From the IMG/VR virus record IMGVR_UViG_3300037189_017134, positions 1-45,262 of that record: a stretch of 45,262 nt of DNA. One strand, 5' to 3'. The notes under the pieces were generated by a model. That model did not search any database. It was not told the DNA's origin and worked only from the letters and a program-made list of their open reading frames with translations. Below are positions 23,183-35,583 of the stretch, piece after piece. The position numbers and the translations under genes were made by a program. Numbering within the stretch: position 1 is the stretch's first letter; each line of letters begins with the position of its first letter. Origin of the DNA: a virus.

Positions 23183-24538
23183 TTAACTAAAGAAGGAATC
23201 AAGTGTGCTTGTTTTTTCTATTTCCCATTTCATACAATCCAAAATAATTTTAATTGGATCGATAAAAGACTTTTCAAATTGCATATCATAATCAATATAA
23301 TTATCCAAACCAAATTCGGTCGGCAATCTAGAAGGATAAGAAATCACAGTATCTTTGAAATGATTGGGCATTTTTAGATACGCAAATTTGAGTTTCTCGC
23401 CTTCTTGAATGAGTGGATATTTCTTGGTCAGATTTTTCTCTTTAAGATGGTGATTATAGAGAATTGCACCCTTAACGTGAATTGGCGTTCCTGATTTATA
23501 TAGTTTAACGGAATCAGAATATTTGGCAAGCCCATTCAAACCTCTTGGAAAAGAAATCTCTTCTGGAGGTAACTTTCGAAAGTCTTCTCTGAATTTATTA
23601 ATGAATTCATGAATGTCGGTTTCGGTGCCAGACAACATAATCTTAATAGCCTCAGACATTTTCTCACGAATCGCCGATGGGGTCGAAGACTTTACCATCT
23701 CTAAACCCATCACCTTCATCTGAGGCTCATTGTATTGTACGCCCTCATTATTATACACATTCATAATATAACGCTTCTTGGCAGTCCAGATACCCTTATC
23801 GGCCAATGCTTCGCGCTTCATCTGCATCTTCTGGTCGTATGCATGAACATAATCAGCCAATTCTTTATAAGACTTATCAATGAATGGTTGAATCTTGTCT
23901 TCACATACCGTATCCATGAACTGTATCGTTTTTAGAATAGGTTGAGTAGTATCACAAACTTTATTGATTAGTGGACCAAGTTTCAGATAAATTGAATCTG
24001 TGTCGGATGCAATTACATAATCTTCATTAGTCTTCAACAAACCATTCATGTACTGATTCAGTTTAGACTCAATCCAACGAATGGATAACTGTCCTGCGAG
24101 TGTAACCGCAAGAGCCATACGCAGATCATAGAATCTAAAGTATTGCGATCCTAGAGCACCATAAGCAGAGTTTAGTGATACTTTCTTGGCCAATTGCAGA
24201 TTATCATAACGAGCAATTCGATTTGAAATTTCTTCCTTCTTTCGGGAGTCCTTTTCGTTTTCATATTCCTGTTTAGCTTGAAGCATCAGTTTCTTAAACT
24301 TTTTTCTGTCAACATACATTTCATCCATCATTTGTGGAAGAAACCCACGAATATCTGTACGGAATAATTGACCATTGGGAGTTAATGTGCATTGCATGAC
24401 TTCGAGAAATGAAGTATCAACACTCTTAGATAACATCGAATTTACATTAACTTTATTAATTTCTTTTTCAAACAATTCAATTGCATGAAGTTCTTTTTCA
24501 AGTTCCTCGGCCGACATATCTTTTATATTACGAAACAT
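23183..24538 (-). CDS. 43B: DNA polymerase gp43, C-terminal part (gp43B)
   Basis: A 451-aa polypeptide holding the B-family polymerase motifs after motif A: KKVSLNSAYGALGSQYFRFYD (motif B, about 119-138), ASDTDSIYLKL (motif C with the catalytic DTDS, about 178-188), and the thumb. It ends TLDSFFS, which resembles the clamp-binding tail of T4 gp43. The ATG directly follows the stop of the HNH gene (TAA-ATG). With the 430-aa N-terminal half the total is 881 aa, close to one T4 gp43 (898), so the enzyme must assemble from two chains. Confidence 0.9.
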   Translation of the reverse strand: MFRNIKDMSAEELEKELHAIELFEKEINKVNVNSMLSKSVDTSFLEVMQCTLTPNGQLFRTDIRGFLPQMMDEMYVDRKKFKKLMLQAKQEYENEKDSRKKEEISNRIARYDNLQLAKKVSLNSAYGALGSQYFRFYDLRMALAVTLAGQLSIRWIESKLNQYMNGLLKTNEDYVIASDTDSIYLKLGPLINKVCDTTQPILKTIQFMDTVCEDKIQPFIDKSYKELADYVHAYDQKMQMKREALADKGIWTAKKRYIMNVYNNEGVQYNEPQMKVMGLEMVKSSTPSAIREKMSEAIKIMLSGTETDIHEFINKFREDFRKLPPEEISFPRGLNGLAKYSDSVKLYKSGTPIHVKGAILYNHHLKEKNLTKKYPLIQEGEKLKFAYLKMPNHFKDTVISYPSRLPTEFGLDNYIDYDMQFEKSFIDPIKIILDCMKWEIEKTSTLDSFFS

Positions 24539-25072
24539 TTATTTGCACCACTTTTTTCTATTTTCCGTTTTAGTCAATATCTGTAAATTATCAGGATGAT
24601 GTAAACCACCCTTCGCAATAGGATGAATATGGTCTACTTCATGATCCTTTGGACAAATCAAATAATATTCTTTCAACTCGCTTTTTTCTTGTTTAGACAA
24701 TTCAGGAGTTTGATTTTTTATTCTTGCCCGGCGTCTGGCAGCAATCTCGTTCCGGATTCTACGCTTGTGGTCTTCACCCAAATACCTGCTTTTTTGGGCA
24801 CAAGAATAACTACAATATTTTGAATCATATTTTTCACTTTCAGTTCGAAACTTCTGTGTTTCATATTCTTTATCACAATGAAGACACTCCAATAAGGCCT
24901 TACGCTCTTTGTTTTTACATTCTAACATAAAAGGTTTCTTTATGTCAAATTTTTGTAGGTGTTTTTTAATGTTAGCATCCGAACAACCGAAATATTCCGC
25001 AACTTCATTTCTCCTCATATTTTTGGTGATAAACAATTCGTAGAGTTTGTCCTTGGTAATATTGTATTTCAC
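24539..25072 (-). CDS. HNH homing endonuclease inserted between the two polymerase halves
   Basis: A 177-aa protein. The N-terminus is a helix-turn-helix-like region (LYELFITKNMRRNEVAEYFG, then SDANIKKHLQKF). A Cys-rich zinc module follows (CLHCDKEY and KYCSYSCAQK), then the HNH core KDHEVDHIHPIAKGG with LHHPDNLQIL and a closing Asn/Lys. The start codon is GTG, with GGAG 5 bases upstream; a 9-bp hairpin lies just before it. It stands free between 43A and 43B, as in other T4-like phages with split gp43, and presumably spreads by cutting uninterrupted 43 genes. Confidence 0.88.
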   Translation of the reverse strand: MKYNITKDKLYELFITKNMRRNEVAEYFGCSDANIKKHLQKFDIKKPFMLECKNKERKALLECLHCDKEYETQKFRTESEKYDSKYCSYSCAQKSRYLGEDHKRRIRNEIAARRRARIKNQTPELSKQEKSELKEYYLICPKDHEVDHIHPIAKGGLHHPDNLQILTKTENRKKWCK

Positions 25073-25081
25073 TAATTCTCC

Positions 25082-25107
25082 AAATAAGTAACCACATATA
25101 CTTATTT
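25082..25107 (-). promoter_or_regulatory. Hairpin between 43A stop and HNH ribosome site
   Basis: A perfect 9-bp stem (AAATAAGTA / TACTTATTT) with an 8-base loop. It includes the stop of 43A and ends right before the GGAG ribosome site of the HNH gene. Hairpins at this place reduce translation of T4 homing endonucleases; a similar role is an inference. Confidence 0.45.
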
Positions 25108-26394
25108 AGTATTCCTGAGTTTTAACTCCTGAATTAGTTTTTCTTTTCGGTTTTCAATATAACTTCGTTCTACTAAAGTTTCCGGAGAAATTGAATACTG
25201 CATCATCAAGTGAGGATACAGACTATTCAAGTCAAATGATGCAACCCAATCATGTTTTCCAACCTGCACTTCTTTAACATATGCACCCTCGAAGGCCGAA
25301 TCTTTATCCTTAATAATGCGAGGAGGAACAATAATATTCTTCTCAAGCAAATAGGAATATGTCATCGAGTCCCACATACGAGTTTGTGCAAACACATCCT
25401 CATAATTAGACTTTGTATCATATGCAAGGGTCAAGGCCAACTCAACGAGTTTCAACTTGTTTTCAAGTTTGAGAATAAGTTCAACGTCTTTAATGTTGTA
25501 TTCGATAAACTTCTGGAAGTTCAGTCGATACAGGTCATTCAGATTGTCATACTCATCGAACGAGATTTTACTTTCACCAATTTCAACATTGGCGATACTA
25601 TTGAGTTTGTAAGACTCTTGTGACTTTCCACCAGGAGCATACCACTTATACAGTTCAATGTAATCAAGTGAAGAAACACCCATCATCTCGTATACGGTTT
25701 GCTGCCGACCCATAACAACAGTCTTTCGCTCCGAAATATAATTCCAAGGCGACAATTTCTTCGCATCATCTTCACCAAGAATTTTACGAAAACGATTAAT
25801 CAAATATGGGATGTCGAAGAATTTTGTATTCCAGCCAGTGAGTACATCTGGACATTTTTTGGTCCAGAGTTCAATGAATTTCTTACAAAGAGTCCACTCA
25901 TCCCTACACTTGATATAGGTTTCATCACCTTGTGTTTCATAAATGCCACAGCCGAAGACGAATGTTTCTCCGCTGAAATACTTAATACAGATGGCAGTAA
26001 TTGGCTCGTTCGCCTCATATGGATCAGGGAATCCATTTTCAGATCCAACCTCAATGTCGATTACAGCAATCGAGATTTTATCTTGCTCCCAATCGACCAT
26101 ACCTTTATGTTGGTCTGCAATAAAAGCATACTCAAATCTTGAATTGCCATAAATCTTTGGACCATTATCGACGCCATCAAATTGTTTGATGAAATCTCTG
26201 GCTTCACGAATATCACCAAAGATTTTCTGGTCGAGGTATTGACCCTCAAGAGTAGTAAATGTAGTTACCTTTTTTGAGGGAACGAATAATGAAGGAGAAT
26301 AGTCAATCCTCTGCTTAACTCGTTTACCCTCAACAATCCCACGATAAAGAATATTGTTTCCAAAAGATTGTACATTTGTATAGAAAGTTGACAT
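25102..26394 (-). CDS. 43A: DNA polymerase gp43, N-terminal part with exonuclease (gp43A)
   Basis: A 430-aa polypeptide with the proofreading exonuclease and the first polymerase motif. It contains Exo I ISIAVIDIEVGS (Asp113, Glu115), Exo II DVLTGWNTKFFDIPYL, Exo III YNIKDVELI, and motif A FDLNSLYPHLMMQYSISPET, after which it stops within about 25 residues (LRNTK-stop). The missing palm, fingers and thumb are encoded by 43B beyond the HNH gene. The start ATG overlaps the preceding small gene. The split falls between motif A and motif B, so neither half is a complete polymerase. Confidence 0.92.
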   Translation of the reverse strand: MSTFYTNVQSFGNNILYRGIVEGKRVKQRIDYSPSLFVPSKKVTTFTTLEGQYLDQKIFGDIREARDFIKQFDGVDNGPKIYGNSRFEYAFIADQHKGMVDWEQDKISIAVIDIEVGSENGFPDPYEANEPITAICIKYFSGETFVFGCGIYETQGDETYIKCRDEWTLCKKFIELWTKKCPDVLTGWNTKFFDIPYLINRFRKILGEDDAKKLSPWNYISERKTVVMGRQQTVYEMMGVSSLDYIELYKWYAPGGKSQESYKLNSIANVEIGESKISFDEYDNLNDLYRLNFQKFIEYNIKDVELILKLENKLKLVELALTLAYDTKSNYEDVFAQTRMWDSMTYSYLLEKNIIVPPRIIKDKDSAFEGAYVKEVQVGKHDWVASFDLNSLYPHLMMQYSISPETLVERSYIENRKEKLIQELKLRNTK

Positions 26395-27651: not shown

Positions 27652-27925
27652 TATAGGCGAATTAATTAATAAATATGGGTTTCCAATTGTTGCTGCTGGC
27701 GGTATGGGTTACCTCATTTATTATGTTTGGCAATGGACAACTCAAGAAATTAAACCTGTGTTGAGTGAAGCAAGTTCGGTTTTAATTGCTATGATTGATC
27801 GTGTTAGAATGTTAGATAATGATTTAATTAGATTAAACCAGAAAATAAACATTGTACAAATGATGCGAGAAATCAAAAATGAAAAAAATATTACTAATAA
27901 TCACAGTAATACTGCTGACAAATAA
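27644..27925 (+). CDS. Small membrane protein, holin-like, paralogue of the first island gene
   Basis: A 93-aa protein with a hydrophobic segment at about residues 11-33 (YGFPIVAAGGMGYLIYYVWQ), followed by a helix and polar tail ending NITNNHSNTADK. It shares the layout and the GFPI motif with the protein starting at 27264, which suggests duplication. The end overlaps the csgF-like start by 47 bases. Possible roles are holin-like pore former or inner-membrane partner of the secretion channel; neither is proven. Confidence 0.6.
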   Translation: MGDIGELINKYGFPIVAAGGMGYLIYYVWQWTTQEIKPVLSEASSVLIAMIDRVRMLDNDLIRLNQKINIVQMMREIKNEKNITNNHSNTADK

Positions 27926-28319
27926 TGTATATGCAGAACAGACATTTCAATTCAAATCTCCTCAATTCAACGGTATTGGATATTCATCTCATGTGCAAAC
28001 TATTGAGAACACAGAATATACGAGAAACCAAGCATTAAATGCAGCAAAAAAACAAGCAGTAATTGATGCGGCGACCGCAAAGGGTAATACAAACCTTGCA
28101 AAATTCTTAAATAACTTTGAGAGCCGAGTATACGCTCAACTTTCAACTCAACTGGTCAACAATCTTTTTGGTGAAAATCCACAGAATAGTGGAACTTTAC
28201 ACCTTGAAGGTAATACGATTCAATATACAAGAAATTCAGATCAGATTTCTTTAACAGTTACAGACAAAAACGGAAATGTGACACAGGTGATTATACCTGT
28301 TGGAACATTTGGACTGTAA
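27879..28319 (+). CDS. csgF: CsgF-like curli assembly protein
   Basis: A 146-aa secreted protein with a clear signal peptide (MKKILLIITVILLTNNVYA, cut before EQ). The mature start QTFQFKSPQFNGIG matches the N-terminal region of CsgF that plugs into the CsgG pore, and the N-Q-x-x-x-A-A stretch after it also fits. In bacteria CsgF sits at the outer face of the CsgG channel and links it to the curlin nucleator. The csgG-like gene follows with no gap, as in curli operons. Confidence 0.82.
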   Translation: MKKILLIITVILLTNNVYAEQTFQFKSPQFNGIGYSSHVQTIENTEYTRNQALNAAKKQAVIDAATAKGNTNLAKFLNNFESRVYAQLSTQLVNNLFGENPQNSGTLHLEGNTIQYTRNSDQISLTVTDKNGNVTQVIIPVGTFGL

Positions 28320-29093
28320 ATGTTAAAATGTATATTTTTAATTCTGATAATGTCTTTACTTGTAGGCTGCACAAATTTACCAGTCATGCAGAATAATAAA
28401 CAGGCGGAATTAATGCAACCAACTCAATTCAAAAGACCATTTCCTGAACCTGCGAGCGGTCAACCAATTGTTATTGCAGTATATTCATTTACGGATAAGA
28501 CTGGACAAAAAAAAGATTCACCTACAATCGCTAAGTTTTCGTCAGCGGTAACGCAAGGTGGTGAAGCTTTACTTTTAAAAGCATTAGCAGATGTTGGTGA
28601 CGGCAAATGGTTCAGAATTGTTGAGCGAGTCAACTTAGACAATTTATTAAAAGAACGTCAATTGATCAGGAATGCAAGAGATGAAGCCAAAGAAGAAAAC
28701 ATACTTCGTCCAATACTCTATGCGGGTATGATTGTTGAAGGTAGTATTGTATCTTACGATTCAAATCAAAAAACTGGCGGATTTGGTATAGCATACTTGG
28801 GAATTGGTCCACAAACAAATTATCAAGAAGATATTGTAACAGTTTCATTACGTGCAATTAATGTTCAAACTGGTGAAGTTATGTTAACTGTAAATACACA
28901 GAAAACTGTTTTGAGTGTTGCCAATTCAATTTCAACATTCAAATTTTTCAAGAAAGGTACGGAAGCATTCGAGAACGAGATTGGTATAACTTCAACTGAA
29001 CCTGGAGTATTCGCAGTTAAATCTGCAATTGAATTGGCAGTTGAGGAGTTGGTTTATGAAGGACGCAGAAAATCACTATGGGTTTTTAAATAA
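28320..29093 (+). CDS. csgG: CsgG-like outer-membrane curli secretion channel lipoprotein
   Basis: A 257-aa lipoprotein with signal peptide and lipobox LLVGC (Cys17). The mature part has IVIAVYSFTDKTGQKK, WFRIVERVNLDNLLKERQLI, LYAGMIVEGSIVSYDS and IVTVSLRAINVQTGEVMLTV, the family signature of CsgG. The length matches E. coli CsgG (277 with leader). CsgG forms a nonameric outer-membrane pore that exports curlin subunits. It follows csgF directly and is followed after 22 bases by a curlin-repeat gene, so a whole export-plus-substrate set is present. Confidence 0.9.
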   Translation: MLKCIFLILIMSLLVGCTNLPVMQNNKQAELMQPTQFKRPFPEPASGQPIVIAVYSFTDKTGQKKDSPTIAKFSSAVTQGGEALLLKALADVGDGKWFRIVERVNLDNLLKERQLIRNARDEAKEENILRPILYAGMIVEGSIVSYDSNQKTGGFGIAYLGIGPQTNYQEDIVTVSLRAINVQTGEVMLTVNTQKTVLSVANSISTFKFFKKGTEAFENEIGITSTEPGVFAVKSAIELAVEELVYEGRRKSLWVFK

Positions 29094-29115
29094 AACAACA
29101 AGGAAATAAACCAAA

Positions 29116-29832
29116 ATGAAAAAATTCACTCGCAATATTGTTATGATGGCAGTATCTTTGATATTTGCCAACTTGACTATGGCGGCAGATTCTGGCGGTA
29201 ATTCAGTTTACATCGATCAAACAAATGCGGATAACTCCACTGTAAGTATCACACAAACTGGAGCAAATAATAGTGTAGGCGACAAAACTAGTCTGTTGAC
29301 TCCACAATTTTCAATTGATGGAAATGCAATGTTTCTTACAATATTACAGACAGGAATGAACAACTCTATCGTTGGTAATTTCATAGGTGGAGATTCTACA
29401 GCAAACATCACGCAACTAGGTAATGGAAACAGTTTGTTCCTCACTCAAGGAAACTTCGGTACAAGTTCTGGTTTATTGAATCTAACATATACCGGAGACA
29501 ATAACACACATAACTTGAATATGGGTGTTTTATCAAATGCTAGTAATTATAATTATTCATTAACGTCTACAGGCACTTCGAATTTAATTACAAGCAAAAT
29601 CAACAGTACCTATACTTTTAATAATATAAACATTATAGGCAATTTTAATGAATTGAACACAACGCAAATTGGAGCAAGTGGAAATCAAACAACGACCGGT
29701 CACTATATCAATACTAATATCATCGGTAGTAACAATAGTGCATCTATAACACAAGATGGAAAAACTAATCCTAACCAGGTCACATTGAATGTTACAGGTT
29801 CTGGCACTTCTATTTCTATCGTTCAGCATTAA
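29116..29832 (+). CDS. Curlin-repeat (CsgA/CsgB-like) secreted protein
   Basis: A 238-aa protein with a signal peptide (to about residue 24, MAA) and then Asn/Thr/Ser/Gly/Gln-rich repeats of the curlin type: VYIDQTNADNSTVSITQTGA, LTILQTGMNNSIVGNF, ANITQLGNGNSLFLTQ, ASITQDGKTNPNQVTL, ending GSGTSISIVQH. The S/T-I-x-Q-x-G-x-x-N spacing is that of curlin strands that stack into amyloid. Repeats are less regular in the middle (about 115-180). It is the likely substrate of the CsgG-CsgF channel. Its last 44 bases overlap the FecR gene. Confidence 0.78.
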   Translation: MKKFTRNIVMMAVSLIFANLTMAADSGGNSVYIDQTNADNSTVSITQTGANNSVGDKTSLLTPQFSIDGNAMFLTILQTGMNNSIVGNFIGGDSTANITQLGNGNSLFLTQGNFGTSSGLLNLTYTGDNNTHNLNMGVLSNASNYNYSLTSTGTSNLITSKINSTYTFNNINIIGNFNELNTTQIGASGNQTTTGHYINTNIIGSNNSASITQDGKTNPNQVTLNVTGSGTSISIVQH

Positions 29833-30814
29833 TTGTTTTGCTGGTATTGGAACAATTACTGAGGAAAAAGGTAGTAGTGAGATAGAGAGAAATAAATCCA
29901 AAATTGATGCCAAAATGAATGGCGGCATCGAATCTATGGATAAAGTGGAAACGGTGAATGGAATTATTGGTATAACTTTTGATGACAATACCAAGGTCAG
30001 AGTCATCGAACATTCAAAATTAGTAATTGATGATTTTGTCTATGATCCAAAATCCAAAGGTGCTGGTAAATTAGCCATGAGAGTGACTTTAGGTACTGTT
30101 CGTTATGCATCAGGTGCAGTTGCTCATGAAAATAATAAAAATGTAGCAATAAGTACCCCAACTGCATCGATTGCGGTTCGGGGTACTGCTTTTACCATGA
30201 CCGTTGATGAGATTGGATCTTCAACCATAATACTTCTACCGAATGTGGATGGAACTGTTGGCGAAATTGAAGTAAAAACTGTTGCAGGAACAGTAGTGCT
30301 GAATCAGGCATTTCAAGCAACAGTAACAAGATTGCCTGAAATTAAACCATTAAAACCAATAATCTTGGCTTTATCGGAATCTGTTATTGATAATATGATG
30401 ATAGTATCTCCACCAAAAGAAATAATGGAGAAGATTGTGCAAGAAACATCAACAAAAGCGGACGCACTTTCATTTAATGGATTAGATGTTAATGCATTAG
30501 ATATTAAACCGTTTGTGAATCCATTGGAATTCAATTCATTGAATATCAATGCTCTAGATGGAAATTATCTATCAAATGTACTAGACAATTTTGATATGAA
30601 TATTTTTGCAGTAGGATTTAATTCAACAAATAATGTTTATATTTTCGATAAAAATTATTATTGGCAAATTGAACGACATATGGGTCAAGATGTCGTAATT
30701 TTAATTTCTAAAGACCGTGGCTATAATATTAATTTGACACAAGATAATAAGTCGATAAATATCAAGAATCAAGATTTTACAACCAATAATATTATTATTA
30801 AACAGTCTAAATGA
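29789..30814 (+). CDS. Secreted FecR-domain protein
   Basis: A 341-aa protein with a signal peptide (MLQVLALLFLSFSINCFA). The region about 55-165 matches a FecR domain: VNGIIGITFDDNTKVRVIEH, LVIDDFVYDP, LGTVRYASGAVAHEN, STPTASIAVRGTAFTMTV. FecR domains act in the periplasm as sensor or scaffold modules. The C-terminal 150 residues show short N-A/S-L-D/N repeats (FNGLDVNALDIKPF, FNSLNINALDG) and a polar end. The start lies within the curlin gene in another frame, and the end overlaps the cyclase start by 4 bases, so the two proteins are probably coupled. Confidence 0.8.
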   Translation: MLQVLALLFLSFSINCFAGIGTITEEKGSSEIERNKSKIDAKMNGGIESMDKVETVNGIIGITFDDNTKVRVIEHSKLVIDDFVYDPKSKGAGKLAMRVTLGTVRYASGAVAHENNKNVAISTPTASIAVRGTAFTMTVDEIGSSTIILLPNVDGTVGEIEVKTVAGTVVLNQAFQATVTRLPEIKPLKPIILALSESVIDNMMIVSPPKEIMEKIVQETSTKADALSFNGLDVNALDIKPFVNPLEFNSLNINALDGNYLSNVLDNFDMNIFAVGFNSTNNVYIFDKNYYWQIERHMGQDVVILISKDRGYNINLTQDNKSINIKNQDFTTNNIIIKQSK

Positions 30815-32871
30815 AAAAATATATTTTATCACCATGGACAGCATTGTTTACAATGATTTTGATGATCGCTATTCGAATATTTGATCCGGGTTTTGTAGAA
30901 TCAGTAAGACTGCGTTATTTCGATCAACTACTAACACAGGATACCACCATCTCTGAACAAGTGCATGTGGTAAATATTGACGATGAGTTTATTCGGCAAA
31001 AAGGTCAGTTCCCGTTCCCAAGAAATGAATATGCAAAGATCATACAAGATTTGTATAGTCGTAATGCTGGGTTGGTTGTGTTTAATGTCTACCTGCCAGA
31101 TGCTGATCGCTTTGGTCAAGATGTTCAACTAGGTAAAACATTAAAAGAAAATCCAACAGTATTTCCTCATGTTGCAGTAAATGATCAAATAACTGATTCT
31201 GTTACACAGGCATTCCGTCCAGGTGTGTCAGTTATCGGAGAAGGTGATGTTGGCGTACACTATAATGCAATTCAACCAAATATACAATCGGTAAATGAAA
31301 ACGCCACAGGTATTGGTGTCGTCAATACTTTGCCCGAAATTGATGGCGTTACACGTAGAATGCCAATGGTTGTTTCAGTTGCAGATCAAATATATCCAAG
31401 CATCAGTCTCGAAACATTGAGAGTTGCTTCTGGCGATCCATCATTTCAGGTAAAAGTAAATCCAACAGGTATTGAAGCAGTAAGAATTCCACAATTCAGA
31501 AAGATTGAGACAGATGAACTTGGTAGAATCTGGGTTAGTTGGAAACACAAACCAATAGAACACTCTCTGGCAAAATTACCAGAAGACTTTGGTGGTGGTA
31601 TTGTAATTGTGGGTCTCACCGCAAAAGGACTTAATAATCCAGTTGCCACCGCAGCAGGAGCAGTCTTTCCGCACTATCTGCAGGGTGCAGTACTGGATAC
31701 ACTAATCAACGGTGAAAACATCACCAGACCCGATTGGTCCACTGGAGCGGAATTACTATACATTGTAATAGCAGTATTACTTTCACTCTATCTTACGAGG
31801 TTCAAACATGGATACATCTTCGCAATCATCTTTGCCGCAGGGACCCACTATGGAGGTAAAGAACTCTTTGTTCGATCAGGCTATTTGGTTGATGCTGTGT
31901 ACCCGATACTTACCCTTACCATTGTGTCTTTCCATGGGTACATTGTTAAATTCCTTGTCGAACTTAACGCCAAACTCCAAATCAAGAAACAATTCGGAAC
32001 CTACCTCTCCCCAGCACTTGTTGAAAAGTTGCAACGAAATCCTGAGTTACTTACGCTTGGTGGTGAGTCGAGAGAGTTATCCATTATGTTCACCGATGTT
32101 CGAGGCTTTACAGCAATATCTGAGCACTATGGAAAAGATGTACAAGGACTAACTAAAATTATGAATCGCTATATGACAGCGATGACTGCAAAGATTATTG
32201 AAAACAACGGAACATTGGACAAGTATATCGGTGATGCCCAGATGGCTTTCTGGAATGCACCATTGGATGAGCCAAACCATGCAAAGATGGCATTGAAAAC
32301 AGCACTACAAATGATGGAGAGTTTAGATGAATTTAATAGAGAAATTGAACCAGAAGGTATCCCTGCCTTTGGTATGGGTTTGGGCATCAATACTGGCATC
32401 GTTGTGGTTGGGAATATGGGGAGCAATCAGCGTTTTGATTATACTTGCCTTGGTGACGCTGTTAACCTAGCATCACGGCTGGAAGGTCAGAGTAAGGGCT
32501 ACGGAGTAAGAATTATTCTTGGCACTTTGACTGCTCAACAAACTGAAGATGAATACGCACTACTAGAACTAGATTGTATTGCAGTTAAAGGAAAAACGGA
32601 AGGAATTAAGATTTTCACTGTTGTCGGAAGGCATGACTGGATGATGCAAAATTCCGGATATGTGTTTGAGACACTTCAACATAATAAGATGTTAGAACTT
32701 TACCGTATGCAGAAATTTGATGAAGCAATACGTTACTGTAAAGAACTAAAGGGCGCATTCTTAGGTCAGATGGATCATTACTACGAACTGTGGATAGATC
32801 GGTGCAATGAAATGAAAACGGCTGGATTGCCAACCGATTGGGATGGAGTTTTTAGGGCGACAAGTAAATAA
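30811..32871 (+). CDS. CHASE2-domain class III adenylate/guanylate cyclase
   Basis: A 686-aa membrane enzyme. A short N-terminal membrane helix (about 9-22) is followed by a CHASE2 sensor domain in the periplasm (about 25-305; VHVVNIDDEF, FPFPRNEYA, GVVNTLPEIDGVTRR). Next come membrane helices at about 313-345 and 362-382, then a cytosolic class III cyclase domain (about 420-605). Both metal Asp residues are present (FTDVRGF, Asp429; DKYIGD, Asp475), as are Lys471 and Thr545 of the ATP-type pair and the transition-state Asn552 and Arg556 (GDAVNLASRLE). The catalytic site looks complete, so it may make cAMP. It is coupled to the FecR gene. Confidence 0.92.
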   Translation: MKKYILSPWTALFTMILMIAIRIFDPGFVESVRLRYFDQLLTQDTTISEQVHVVNIDDEFIRQKGQFPFPRNEYAKIIQDLYSRNAGLVVFNVYLPDADRFGQDVQLGKTLKENPTVFPHVAVNDQITDSVTQAFRPGVSVIGEGDVGVHYNAIQPNIQSVNENATGIGVVNTLPEIDGVTRRMPMVVSVADQIYPSISLETLRVASGDPSFQVKVNPTGIEAVRIPQFRKIETDELGRIWVSWKHKPIEHSLAKLPEDFGGGIVIVGLTAKGLNNPVATAAGAVFPHYLQGAVLDTLINGENITRPDWSTGAELLYIVIAVLLSLYLTRFKHGYIFAIIFAAGTHYGGKELFVRSGYLVDAVYPILTLTIVSFHGYIVKFLVELNAKLQIKKQFGTYLSPALVEKLQRNPELLTLGGESRELSIMFTDVRGFTAISEHYGKDVQGLTKIMNRYMTAMTAKIIENNGTLDKYIGDAQMAFWNAPLDEPNHAKMALKTALQMMESLDEFNREIEPEGIPAFGMGLGINTGIVVVGNMGSNQRFDYTCLGDAVNLASRLEGQSKGYGVRIILGTLTAQQTEDEYALLELDCIAVKGKTEGIKIFTVVGRHDWMMQNSGYVFETLQHNKMLELYRMQKFDEAIRYCKELKGAFLGQMDHYYELWIDRCNEMKTAGLPTDWDGVFRATSK

Positions 32872-34780: not shown

Positions 34781-34913
34781 ATTAACTTTGGTGCGGGTAG
34801 CCGGACTCGAACCGGCACGCACTAGGCGAGGGATTTTCGTACCACTATAGTTTTCACTACCTGCATTTTGGTAAACGCAGTTTGATGGTCTGGACTTTAT
34901 CTTTACCATATTA

Positions 34914-34921
34914 TATAAATA
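34914..34921 (+). promoter_or_regulatory. T4-type late promoter inside the intron, for the antisense HNH gene
   Basis: A perfect TATAAATA on the plus strand, 47 bases upstream of the ATG of the HNH gene and located between the R and S elements of the intron. The only other plus-strand block is the curli island, so this promoter appears dedicated to the endonuclease. Confidence 0.75.
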
Positions 34922-34967
34922 AGTTAGGTAGTGCCTGTTAAGTCTCTACACTTCCAAAGGAATCTTT

Positions 34968-35456
34968 ATGAAATTAAAAAAATACACTCTACAAGAATTG
35001 AAAGATGCAATTGCAACTTCAGTATCCGTACGTCAAGCATTAATGAAATTAAATGTTAAACCGATGGGTGGGAATTATTACATTTTCCACAAATCAGTAA
35101 AACATTTTAATTTAGATACTTCTCATTTTACTGGAATGAACATCACGGGTAGAAAATTACCACCTAGACGCAAAACAATAAATGAATATCTAAAAAAAGA
35201 TTCTGATATACAATCAAGTAAATTGAAAAAATATTTACTAGATGAACACATTTTTGAACCTGTATGTTCATCTTGCAATTTACGAGATTGGCTATTAAAA
35301 CCAATTCCACTAGAACTAGATCACATAGATGGTATTAATTCAAACAACGAACTAACCAATCTACGTCTTCTTTGTCCCAACTGTCACGCACAAACATCAA
35401 CTTATAGAGGTAAAAACATAAAGAAACCTAAGTTTAGCTCGGTATTGGCATTTTAA
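34968..35456 (+). CDS. HNH endonuclease encoded antisense within the tRNA-Leu intron
   Basis: A 162-aa protein. The N-terminal third (YTLQELKDAIATSVSVRQAL) looks like a helix-turn-helix DNA-binding part. The HNH domain has zinc cysteines (VCSSCNLRD and LCPNCHAQ) and the catalytic LELDHIDGINSNNELTNLRL. AGGAAT precedes the ATG. The gene runs opposite to the intron and tRNA, so it cannot be made from the spliced transcript; a late promoter of its own lies upstream. It is likely the homing enzyme of the intron. It is not closely similar to the other HNH protein at 24539. Confidence 0.88.
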   Translation: MKLKKYTLQELKDAIATSVSVRQALMKLNVKPMGGNYYIFHKSVKHFNLDTSHFTGMNITGRKLPPRRKTINEYLKKDSDIQSSKLKKYLLDEHIFEPVCSSCNLRDWLLKPIPLELDHIDGINSNNELTNLRLLCPNCHAQTSTYRGKNIKKPKFSSVLAF

Positions 35457-35583
35457 AGCTTTCACCGAATTTAAGCACATTCACACTAGAAGTTTCCTAC
35501 CTAGGTGCTCAATTTTTGTCTAAGTCCCTTGTGTCTACCATTTCACCATACCCGCATTAAAACTACTATATATCACACTAACT

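Follow-up and report, generated by a model that had tools for sequence, protein, structure and literature searches.

The window, by which we mean the entire 45,262-base linear IMG/VR virus record analyzed here, carries a tRNA-Leu(UAA) gene that is split within its anticodon by a group I intron, and a gene for an HNH endonuclease lies antisense in the L6 loop of this intron. We estimate a probability of roughly 0.8 that intron and gene together represent a self-splicing homing element of a T4-like phage. At the sequence level, the analysis demonstrates that the gene is split, that the intron fold is conserved, that the protein belongs to an HNH family constantly linked to tRNA-Leu(UAA), and that one clade of antisense HNH genes comprises bacterial and phage members. 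Splicing, expression, cutting, homing, and the direction of transfer are what we infer from these findings.

A split tRNA-Leu(UAA) gene in a T4-like phage

Open reading frames of the window include T4-like genes for a polymerase, a recombinase, a helicase, a clamp, and a clamp loader. The closest match to the clamp loader is found in Methylophilales phage Melnitz (62%), and any guess about the host therefore rests on one protein. An array of tRNA genes was detected by ARAGORN between 32.9 and 37 kb. When introns were allowed, ARAGORN reported a tRNA-Leu(UAA) of 83 bases at 35555-34789 (minus strand) that is interrupted by an intron ("Intron Length: 684, insertion position 34-35, gactt-Intron-aaaat"), while the same gene was missed in the run without introns. 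The split gene consists of the following parts:

34789..34837, minus strand: 3' exon of tRNA-Leu(UAA), starting with AAAATCCC (A35), CCA encoded (ARAGORN)
34838..35521, minus strand: group I intron of 684 nt, AGACAAAAATTGAG...GGTACG, last base G (ARAGORN, alignment, pair counts)
35522..35555, minus strand: 5' exon of tRNA-Leu(UAA), ending ...GGGACTT (U34) (ARAGORN with introns; relatives)

Once joined, the exons form a perfect class II tRNA-Leu(UAA) of 83 bases with an encoded CCA. The initial annotation had proposed precisely these two halves, and its coordinates as well as the length and site of the 684-base insert between U34 and A35 are identical to those from ARAGORN; the scoring of the exons as one tRNA had been named beforehand as a test, and ARAGORN does report a single split gene. 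Furthermore, the exons resemble unsplit phage tRNA-Leu genes, with Aeromonas phage ZPAH34 reaching 89.7% within one 86-nt stretch. As a tRNA finder run at default (here ARAGORN) skips the split tRNA-Leu(UAA), genomes of phages and bacteria are annotated as lacking a tRNA that they have.

Elsewhere in the window, a curli-type module (27879-32871, plus strand) encodes CsgF, CsgG, a curlin-repeat protein, a FecR protein, and a CHASE2 adenylate/guanylate cyclase. The module was rejected as a new feature, since phage Melnitz has the same gene order. The GenBank record of Melnitz names two curlin-repeat proteins, which is at odds with the corresponding paper, where csgA and csgB are described as lacking (PMC9004378). 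In addition, the DNA polymerase gene is present in two pieces (25102-26394 and 23183-24538, minus strand) with an HNH gene (24539-25072) between them, so that the phage contains another homing-type interruption in this region (23183-26394, minus strand).

Fold and classification of the insert

The elements of the intron core that were located in the window are given below.

34893..34897, minus strand: P7 3' strand in S (AAGUC) (pair counts)
34931..34936, minus strand: P3 3' strand AGGCAC (pair counts)
34940..34944, minus strand: P7 5' strand in R (GACUU), partner 34893-34897 (pair counts)
35439..35444, minus strand: P4 3' strand (Q element), whose complement codes for the end of the HNH protein (pair counts)
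35463..35468, minus strand: P4 5' strand (P element), partner 35439-35444 (pair counts)
35473..35478, minus strand: P3 5' strand GUGCUU (intron 44-49), partner 34931-34936 (alignment, pair counts)
35508..35510, minus strand: internal guide GAG of P1, opposite exon CTT (direct reading; TTGAG common to nearly all relatives)

For the fold, the HNH gene was clipped from eight introns (that of the window and those of seven relatives), the clipped sequences were aligned with 23 ORF-less introns from the same site, a consensus fold was taken from this alignment, P7 was added by hand, and pairs were then counted. Since the structure was derived from the same sequences, the pairing measures are biased towards it, but the slide and shuffle controls lie far off: 97.0% of 1359 cells (44 pairs) are paired, compared to 74.6% in column shuffles and 31.7-44.6% with partners slid, and 328 cells show double changes, distributed over 32 pairs, compared to 101 in the shuffles. 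P3 is paired in 100% and P7 in 99.4% of cells, with changes on both sides in all 6 P3 pairs and in 3 of the 5 P7 pairs. Gammaproteobacterial relatives have GGAGUC/GGCUCC in P3, which differs on both sides from the GUGCUU/AGGCAC of the window. The clipped window intron itself keeps all tested pairs in P2, P3, P4, P5, P6, P7, P8, and P9, the only mismatches being two pairs of the P6 extension. Thus, the P, Q, R, and S core elements that had been noted from the sequence are indeed present, with P3-P8 including P7 paired, and the same is true for the P1 with CTT/GAG and the terminal G. The splice sites show the expected hallmarks, namely the U before the 5' site, the U-G pair to the guide GAG, and the intron-terminal G (...GGTACG).

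A comparison with a group I model, which the initial annotation had suggested as a check, gave a divided result. While P3-P8 are paired in the alignment, the generic Rfam model RF00028 yields only a weak local match on the intact window (18.8 bits, E 0.028, gathering score 50), which is interrupted by the inserted gene, and a search of the window's own record with RF00028 gave no match. The weak score is explained by the 489-nt gene that sits inside the intron; ORF-less relatives at the same site reach the RF00028 threshold with 54-57 bits (56.6 in phage LR756501). Judged by its sequence, the insert is a group I intron, and it would belong to the IC3 type, which is assigned by insertion site and homology only.

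An HNH endonuclease gene antisense to the intron

On the opposite strand, the following features were identified:

34914..34921, plus strand: TATAAATA in L8, a box of the T4 late type located 46 nt upstream of the ATG; possible promoter (motif count)
34956..34961, plus strand: AAAGGA, a Shine-Dalgarno-like box for the HNH gene, complementary to the P6-extension 3' arm (sequence reading)
34968..35456, plus strand (antisense to the intron): HNH endonuclease, 162 aa, in L6 between Q and R (PF01844, phrog_10822, alignment)

The placement of an HNH gene in the Q-R region of the opposite strand, as originally described, is therefore correct. The protein encoded by this 489-nt gene matches Pfam PF01844 (7.8e-5) and phrog_10822 (1.9e-45), and the alignment shows that its ELDHIDG...N...NL...CPNCH and CxxC motifs are intact; the metal-binding and HNH residues are intact in all aligned copies. 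Among solved structures, no sequence match of the window protein was found.

The reading frame extends into the ribozyme. The final HNH codons of the window complement the P6 5', P4 3', and P5 3' strands. Bacterial antisense copies terminate with a TAG complementary to the CUA of the conserved GAGCUAAG; the frame of the window continues beyond this position and terminates within the P4-P5 complement, and its last codons are thus dictated by the ribozyme. At the other end, boxes resembling GGAG or AAGGA are found at the same place, on the complement of the P6 3' arm, in most antisense relatives. The proposal that the gene has its own TATAAATA promoter did not hold: although one copy lies 46 nt from the ATG, the motif is not above chance (3 in the window versus 4.5 expected), and it was rejected as a T4-late promoter. 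That intron splicing and endonuclease expression are uncoupled, as had also been suggested, may still reasonably be inferred from the strand of the gene.

Of the eleven differences between the window and the near-identical contig L171, one is in the ribozyme part and the other ten are in the gene stretch. The resulting codon changes, 4 silent and 4 replacing, give no sign of strong constraint on the HNH protein.

The HNH family is tied to tRNA-Leu(UAA)

The closest relatives of the window protein (51-59% identity) are encoded antisense in L6 of at least 8 bacterial introns at the same site. These chromosomal introns measure 688-698 nt and comprise L196, L199, L206, L227, L236, L272, and L315 (gammaproteobacterial) as well as L359. 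Most bacterial antisense loci were found through the intron, and only L315, from a gammaproteobacterial sample, and L359, from an alphaproteobacterial sample (the class of a Caulobacter), are unbiased for this arrangement, which also occurs in the viral contigs L167 and L059. In the HNH tree, the window, its near-copy L171, and seven bacterial antisense copies form one clade (100/96). Beside this clade are L167, L059, and HNH genes located just downstream of an intron-bearing tRNA-Leu in convergent orientation; the gene thus opposes the tRNA in the whole group, be it inside or outside the intron. Elsewhere, members of the same family are found in sense orientation inside the intron or free-standing beside a tRNA-Leu(UAA) with or without intron. 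A peptide-pattern search of viral contigs, a method limited to close kin, returned only the near-identical L128/L171 contig.

The tie to tRNA-Leu(UAA) was also evaluated in genomes that had been sampled irrespective of the intron (399 from the order of G374, 289 from the class of G376, 295 from the class of G375, and 369 from the class of G002). Four already known loci were left out of the homologue count, and eight new matches were obtained, 7 of which are in or within about 200 bp of a tRNA-Leu(UAA):

L353, L354: upstream of an intron-less tRNA-Leu(UAA)
L355, L356: upstream of an intron-bearing tRNA-Leu(UAA)
L360: abuts an intron-less tRNA-Leu(UAA)
L359, L315: antisense inside the intron
L357: HNH match running to the end of its locus, at a contig end

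Because there are only one or a few such genes per several million bases, this tie is not a matter of chance. Free-standing HNH genes are known to us beside intron-less (L353, L354, L360, L310, L311, L318) and intron-bearing tRNA-Leu(UAA) genes (L355, L356, L010, L054, L096), and such neighbors in bacterial chromosomes and phages are natural material for tests of collaborative homing. Phage members of the family also occur beside tRNAs Gln, Glu, Phe, and Leu-UAG; the wider family may therefore aim at several tRNA genes. Synechococcus phage S-CRM01 was rejected as a carrier of the split gene, as its tRNAs are Leu(CAA) and Ile; at this locus (L309), an HNH gene is squeezed between, and overlaps, the tRNA-Leu(CAA) and tRNA-Ile genes.

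These data bear on the view that, within a genuine intron, the HNH gene is a passenger or decaying, having landed antisense in L6 by chance and being unexpressed, with movement brought about by recombination in the tRNA region. We regard this as unlikely: while the balance of replacing and silent changes between the window and L171, the C-terminus extending past the stop of the relatives into the complement of the core, and the lack of an enriched promoter motif would fit, the same strand, loop, and similar frame limits in at least 8 bacterial introns and phage L167, the intact metal-binding and HNH residues in every aligned copy, and the Shine-Dalgarno-like boxes preceding most start codons speak against it.

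Distribution and phylogeny of the same-site intron

A search with the 3' splice-site motif matched at least 119 IMG/VR contigs, and among the 119 matches listed, more than 100 have a matching 5' tRNA half with a UAA anticodon upstream. The IMG/VR introns at this site are mostly 190-215 nt long and devoid of a gene. Two named huge phages carry the intron as well, the 735-kb LR756501 (205 nt) and Agrobacterium phage Atu_ph07 (278 nt). A further viral motif scan gave 58 matches, many of which are plain intron-less tRNA-Leu genes. With the 5'-half motif and one genome per species, the matches listed include Alpha-, Beta-, and Gammaproteobacteria, Bacteroidota, an Acidobacteriota genome, and one cyanobacterium, with matching 3' exons; the strict motif was present in 22 of 339 sampled genomes of the gammaproteobacterial class of G002. 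The intron, along with the HNH family linked to this tRNA gene, therefore looks like a widespread, largely unnoticed mobile element rather than a one-off.

Several related observations were made. The chromosomal loci L185-L303 include split tRNA-Leu(UAA) genes in species of Achromobacter, Variovorax, Caulobacter, Bradyrhizobium, and Pseudomonas. Phage tRNAs with a UAA anticodon and a short (class I) variable loop also carry the intron, e.g., GGGAGCATAGCCCAATTAGGCAGAGGCAATGGACTT/AAAATCCATCAAGTGAGGG... (L011, L012, L015, L023, L025, L042, L045, L054, and others). Moreover, LR756501.1 718159-718390 (L125) is a second group I intron of the 735-kb phage, with 96.1 bits to RF00028.

Across well supported branches of the 158-intron tree, at least 5 changes of the virus label are seen, so that introns would have passed between phages and bacteria more than once, or would often have been lost. 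The window falls into an 8-row set (99/82) together with the cyanobacterial intron L274, four more viruses, and two Thiotrichaceae. Trees of 150-210 columns are weak, and L274 is the sole cyanobacterial intron included. The window intron is most similar to the gammaproteobacterial L236, with 75% identity. The HNH tree groups the window with the gammaproteobacterial antisense introns, a placement that is not recovered in the intron tree (212 columns); intron and HNH gene may differ in their history, or the short RNA may be misleading.

The initial annotation had described a cyanobacterial/plastid intron in a phage and had suggested a phylogeny of the intron core. Site and core are indeed shared, but the frame is too narrow, as the intron is widespread in phages, Pseudomonadota, and Bacteroidota, and the closest HNH kin come from bacteria, chiefly Gammaproteobacteria; in the phylogeny, the window falls into the mixed set described above. 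Its further suggestion, horizontal spread of an intron regarded as ancient and vertical, has a precedent, since horizontal movement of the tRNA-Leu(UAA) intron had already been proposed in cyanobacteria (title of Rudi et al. 2002, cited in PMC3984707), and the vertical view had thus never been complete. Direct capture of a cyanobacterial tRNA-Leu intron by the phage, the route that the annotation implied, appears quite improbable to us from a tree that includes a single cyanobacterium. It would account for the identical insertion site and for L274, the only cyanobacterial intron in the tree, sharing the set of the window; the same set, however, holds the other viruses and the Thiotrichaceae, the most similar intron is gammaproteobacterial, and the nearest HNH kin are bacterial, mainly gammaproteobacterial, antisense introns and not cyanobacterial ones.

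Proposed mechanism and comparison with known systems

That the tRNA gene is a pseudogene whose insert no longer splices, leaving the phage to rely on the tRNA-Leu(UAA) of its host, is very unlikely: a 489-nt insertion in L6 could slow folding, and the RF00028 score of the intact window is low, but the exons form a perfect tRNA, the family shows compensatory changes in P3 and P7, the window core is fully paired, and 10 of the 11 changes relative to the sister contig are in the gene stretch, with one in the ribozyme part.

According to our preferred reading of a self-splicing homing element, the intron RNA would excise itself in a guanosine-initiated reaction, with P1 formed by exon CUU and GAG, and a normal tRNA would remain. 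Translated from an antisense transcript, the HNH protein would cleave tRNA-Leu(UAA) genes that lack the intron, in or close to the anticodon; intron and gene would spread when the break is repaired with the intron-bearing copy as template, during phage co-infection or phage/host exchange. The antisense strand may allow the HNH gene to be transcribed independently of the tRNA, at the cost of two converging transcription units. The family occurs free-standing, with or without the intron, as well as intronic in both orientations, which fits collaborative homing: an ORF-less intron would have been joined, more than once, by a free-standing enzyme that was already directed against the tRNA gene. 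More broadly, and here our confidence is evenly divided, one HNH lineage may have followed the anticodon loop of a single tRNA across phages and several phyla of bacteria in free-standing, sense, and antisense (L6) form, with phages carrying the composite between hosts and the antisense form taking its ribosome-binding site and stop from the ribozyme complement.

Among bacterial tRNA genes, group I introns occur in those for Leu(UAA) and fMet in cyanobacteria and in Ile and Arg genes elsewhere. Cases in fMet and Ile2 tRNAs are noted in the tRNAscan-SE 2.0 paper (PMC8450103), and in 2017 an interrupted phage tRNA was described as, to the knowledge of its authors, the first in a phage and possibly an artefact (PMC5746245). 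In the open-access literature, we found no paper on tRNA-Leu introns of phages or proteobacteria, nor any that deals with HNH genes lying antisense to group I introns in prokaryotes.

The element can be compared with several known systems. The group IC3 introns in cyanobacterial and plastid tRNA-Leu(UAA) share the host gene, the U34/A35 site, the internal guide sequence GAG, and the P3-P8 core, but the window intron resides in a phage and harbors an antisense HNH gene in L6, while most tRNA-Leu introns of cyanobacteria lack an ORF. Chromosomal antisense-HNH introns of Gammaproteobacteria correspond in site, length class, antisense HNH gene in L6, and, at 51-59% identity, the protein; they differ in that their HNH frame stops at the complement of the core GAGCTAAG, while that of the window goes further into P4-P5. 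Other phage tRNA-Leu(UAA) introns (LR756501, Atu_ph07, IMG/VR contigs) have the same site, core, and 3' splice motif TATAGTRGTANG, but are mostly ORF-less with 190-280 nt, or have the HNH gene in sense orientation or just outside the tRNA. Free-standing endonucleases are known from T4, where mobE is aimed at the site of the endonuclease-lacking nrdB intron in collaborative, or trans, homing (reviewed in PMC2988022) and segB lies in the phage tRNA array; these belong to other endonuclease families with other targets and involve no intron in a tRNA anticodon loop. Finally, the nuclear rDNA introns Dsq.L2066 and Dir.S956-2 of myxomycetes (PMC9548176) likewise carry an endonuclease gene in a peripheral loop opposite to the ribozyme strand, but they encode His-Cys box proteins, interrupt rDNA in a eukaryotic nucleus, and, in Dsq.L2066, have the insertion in P9.
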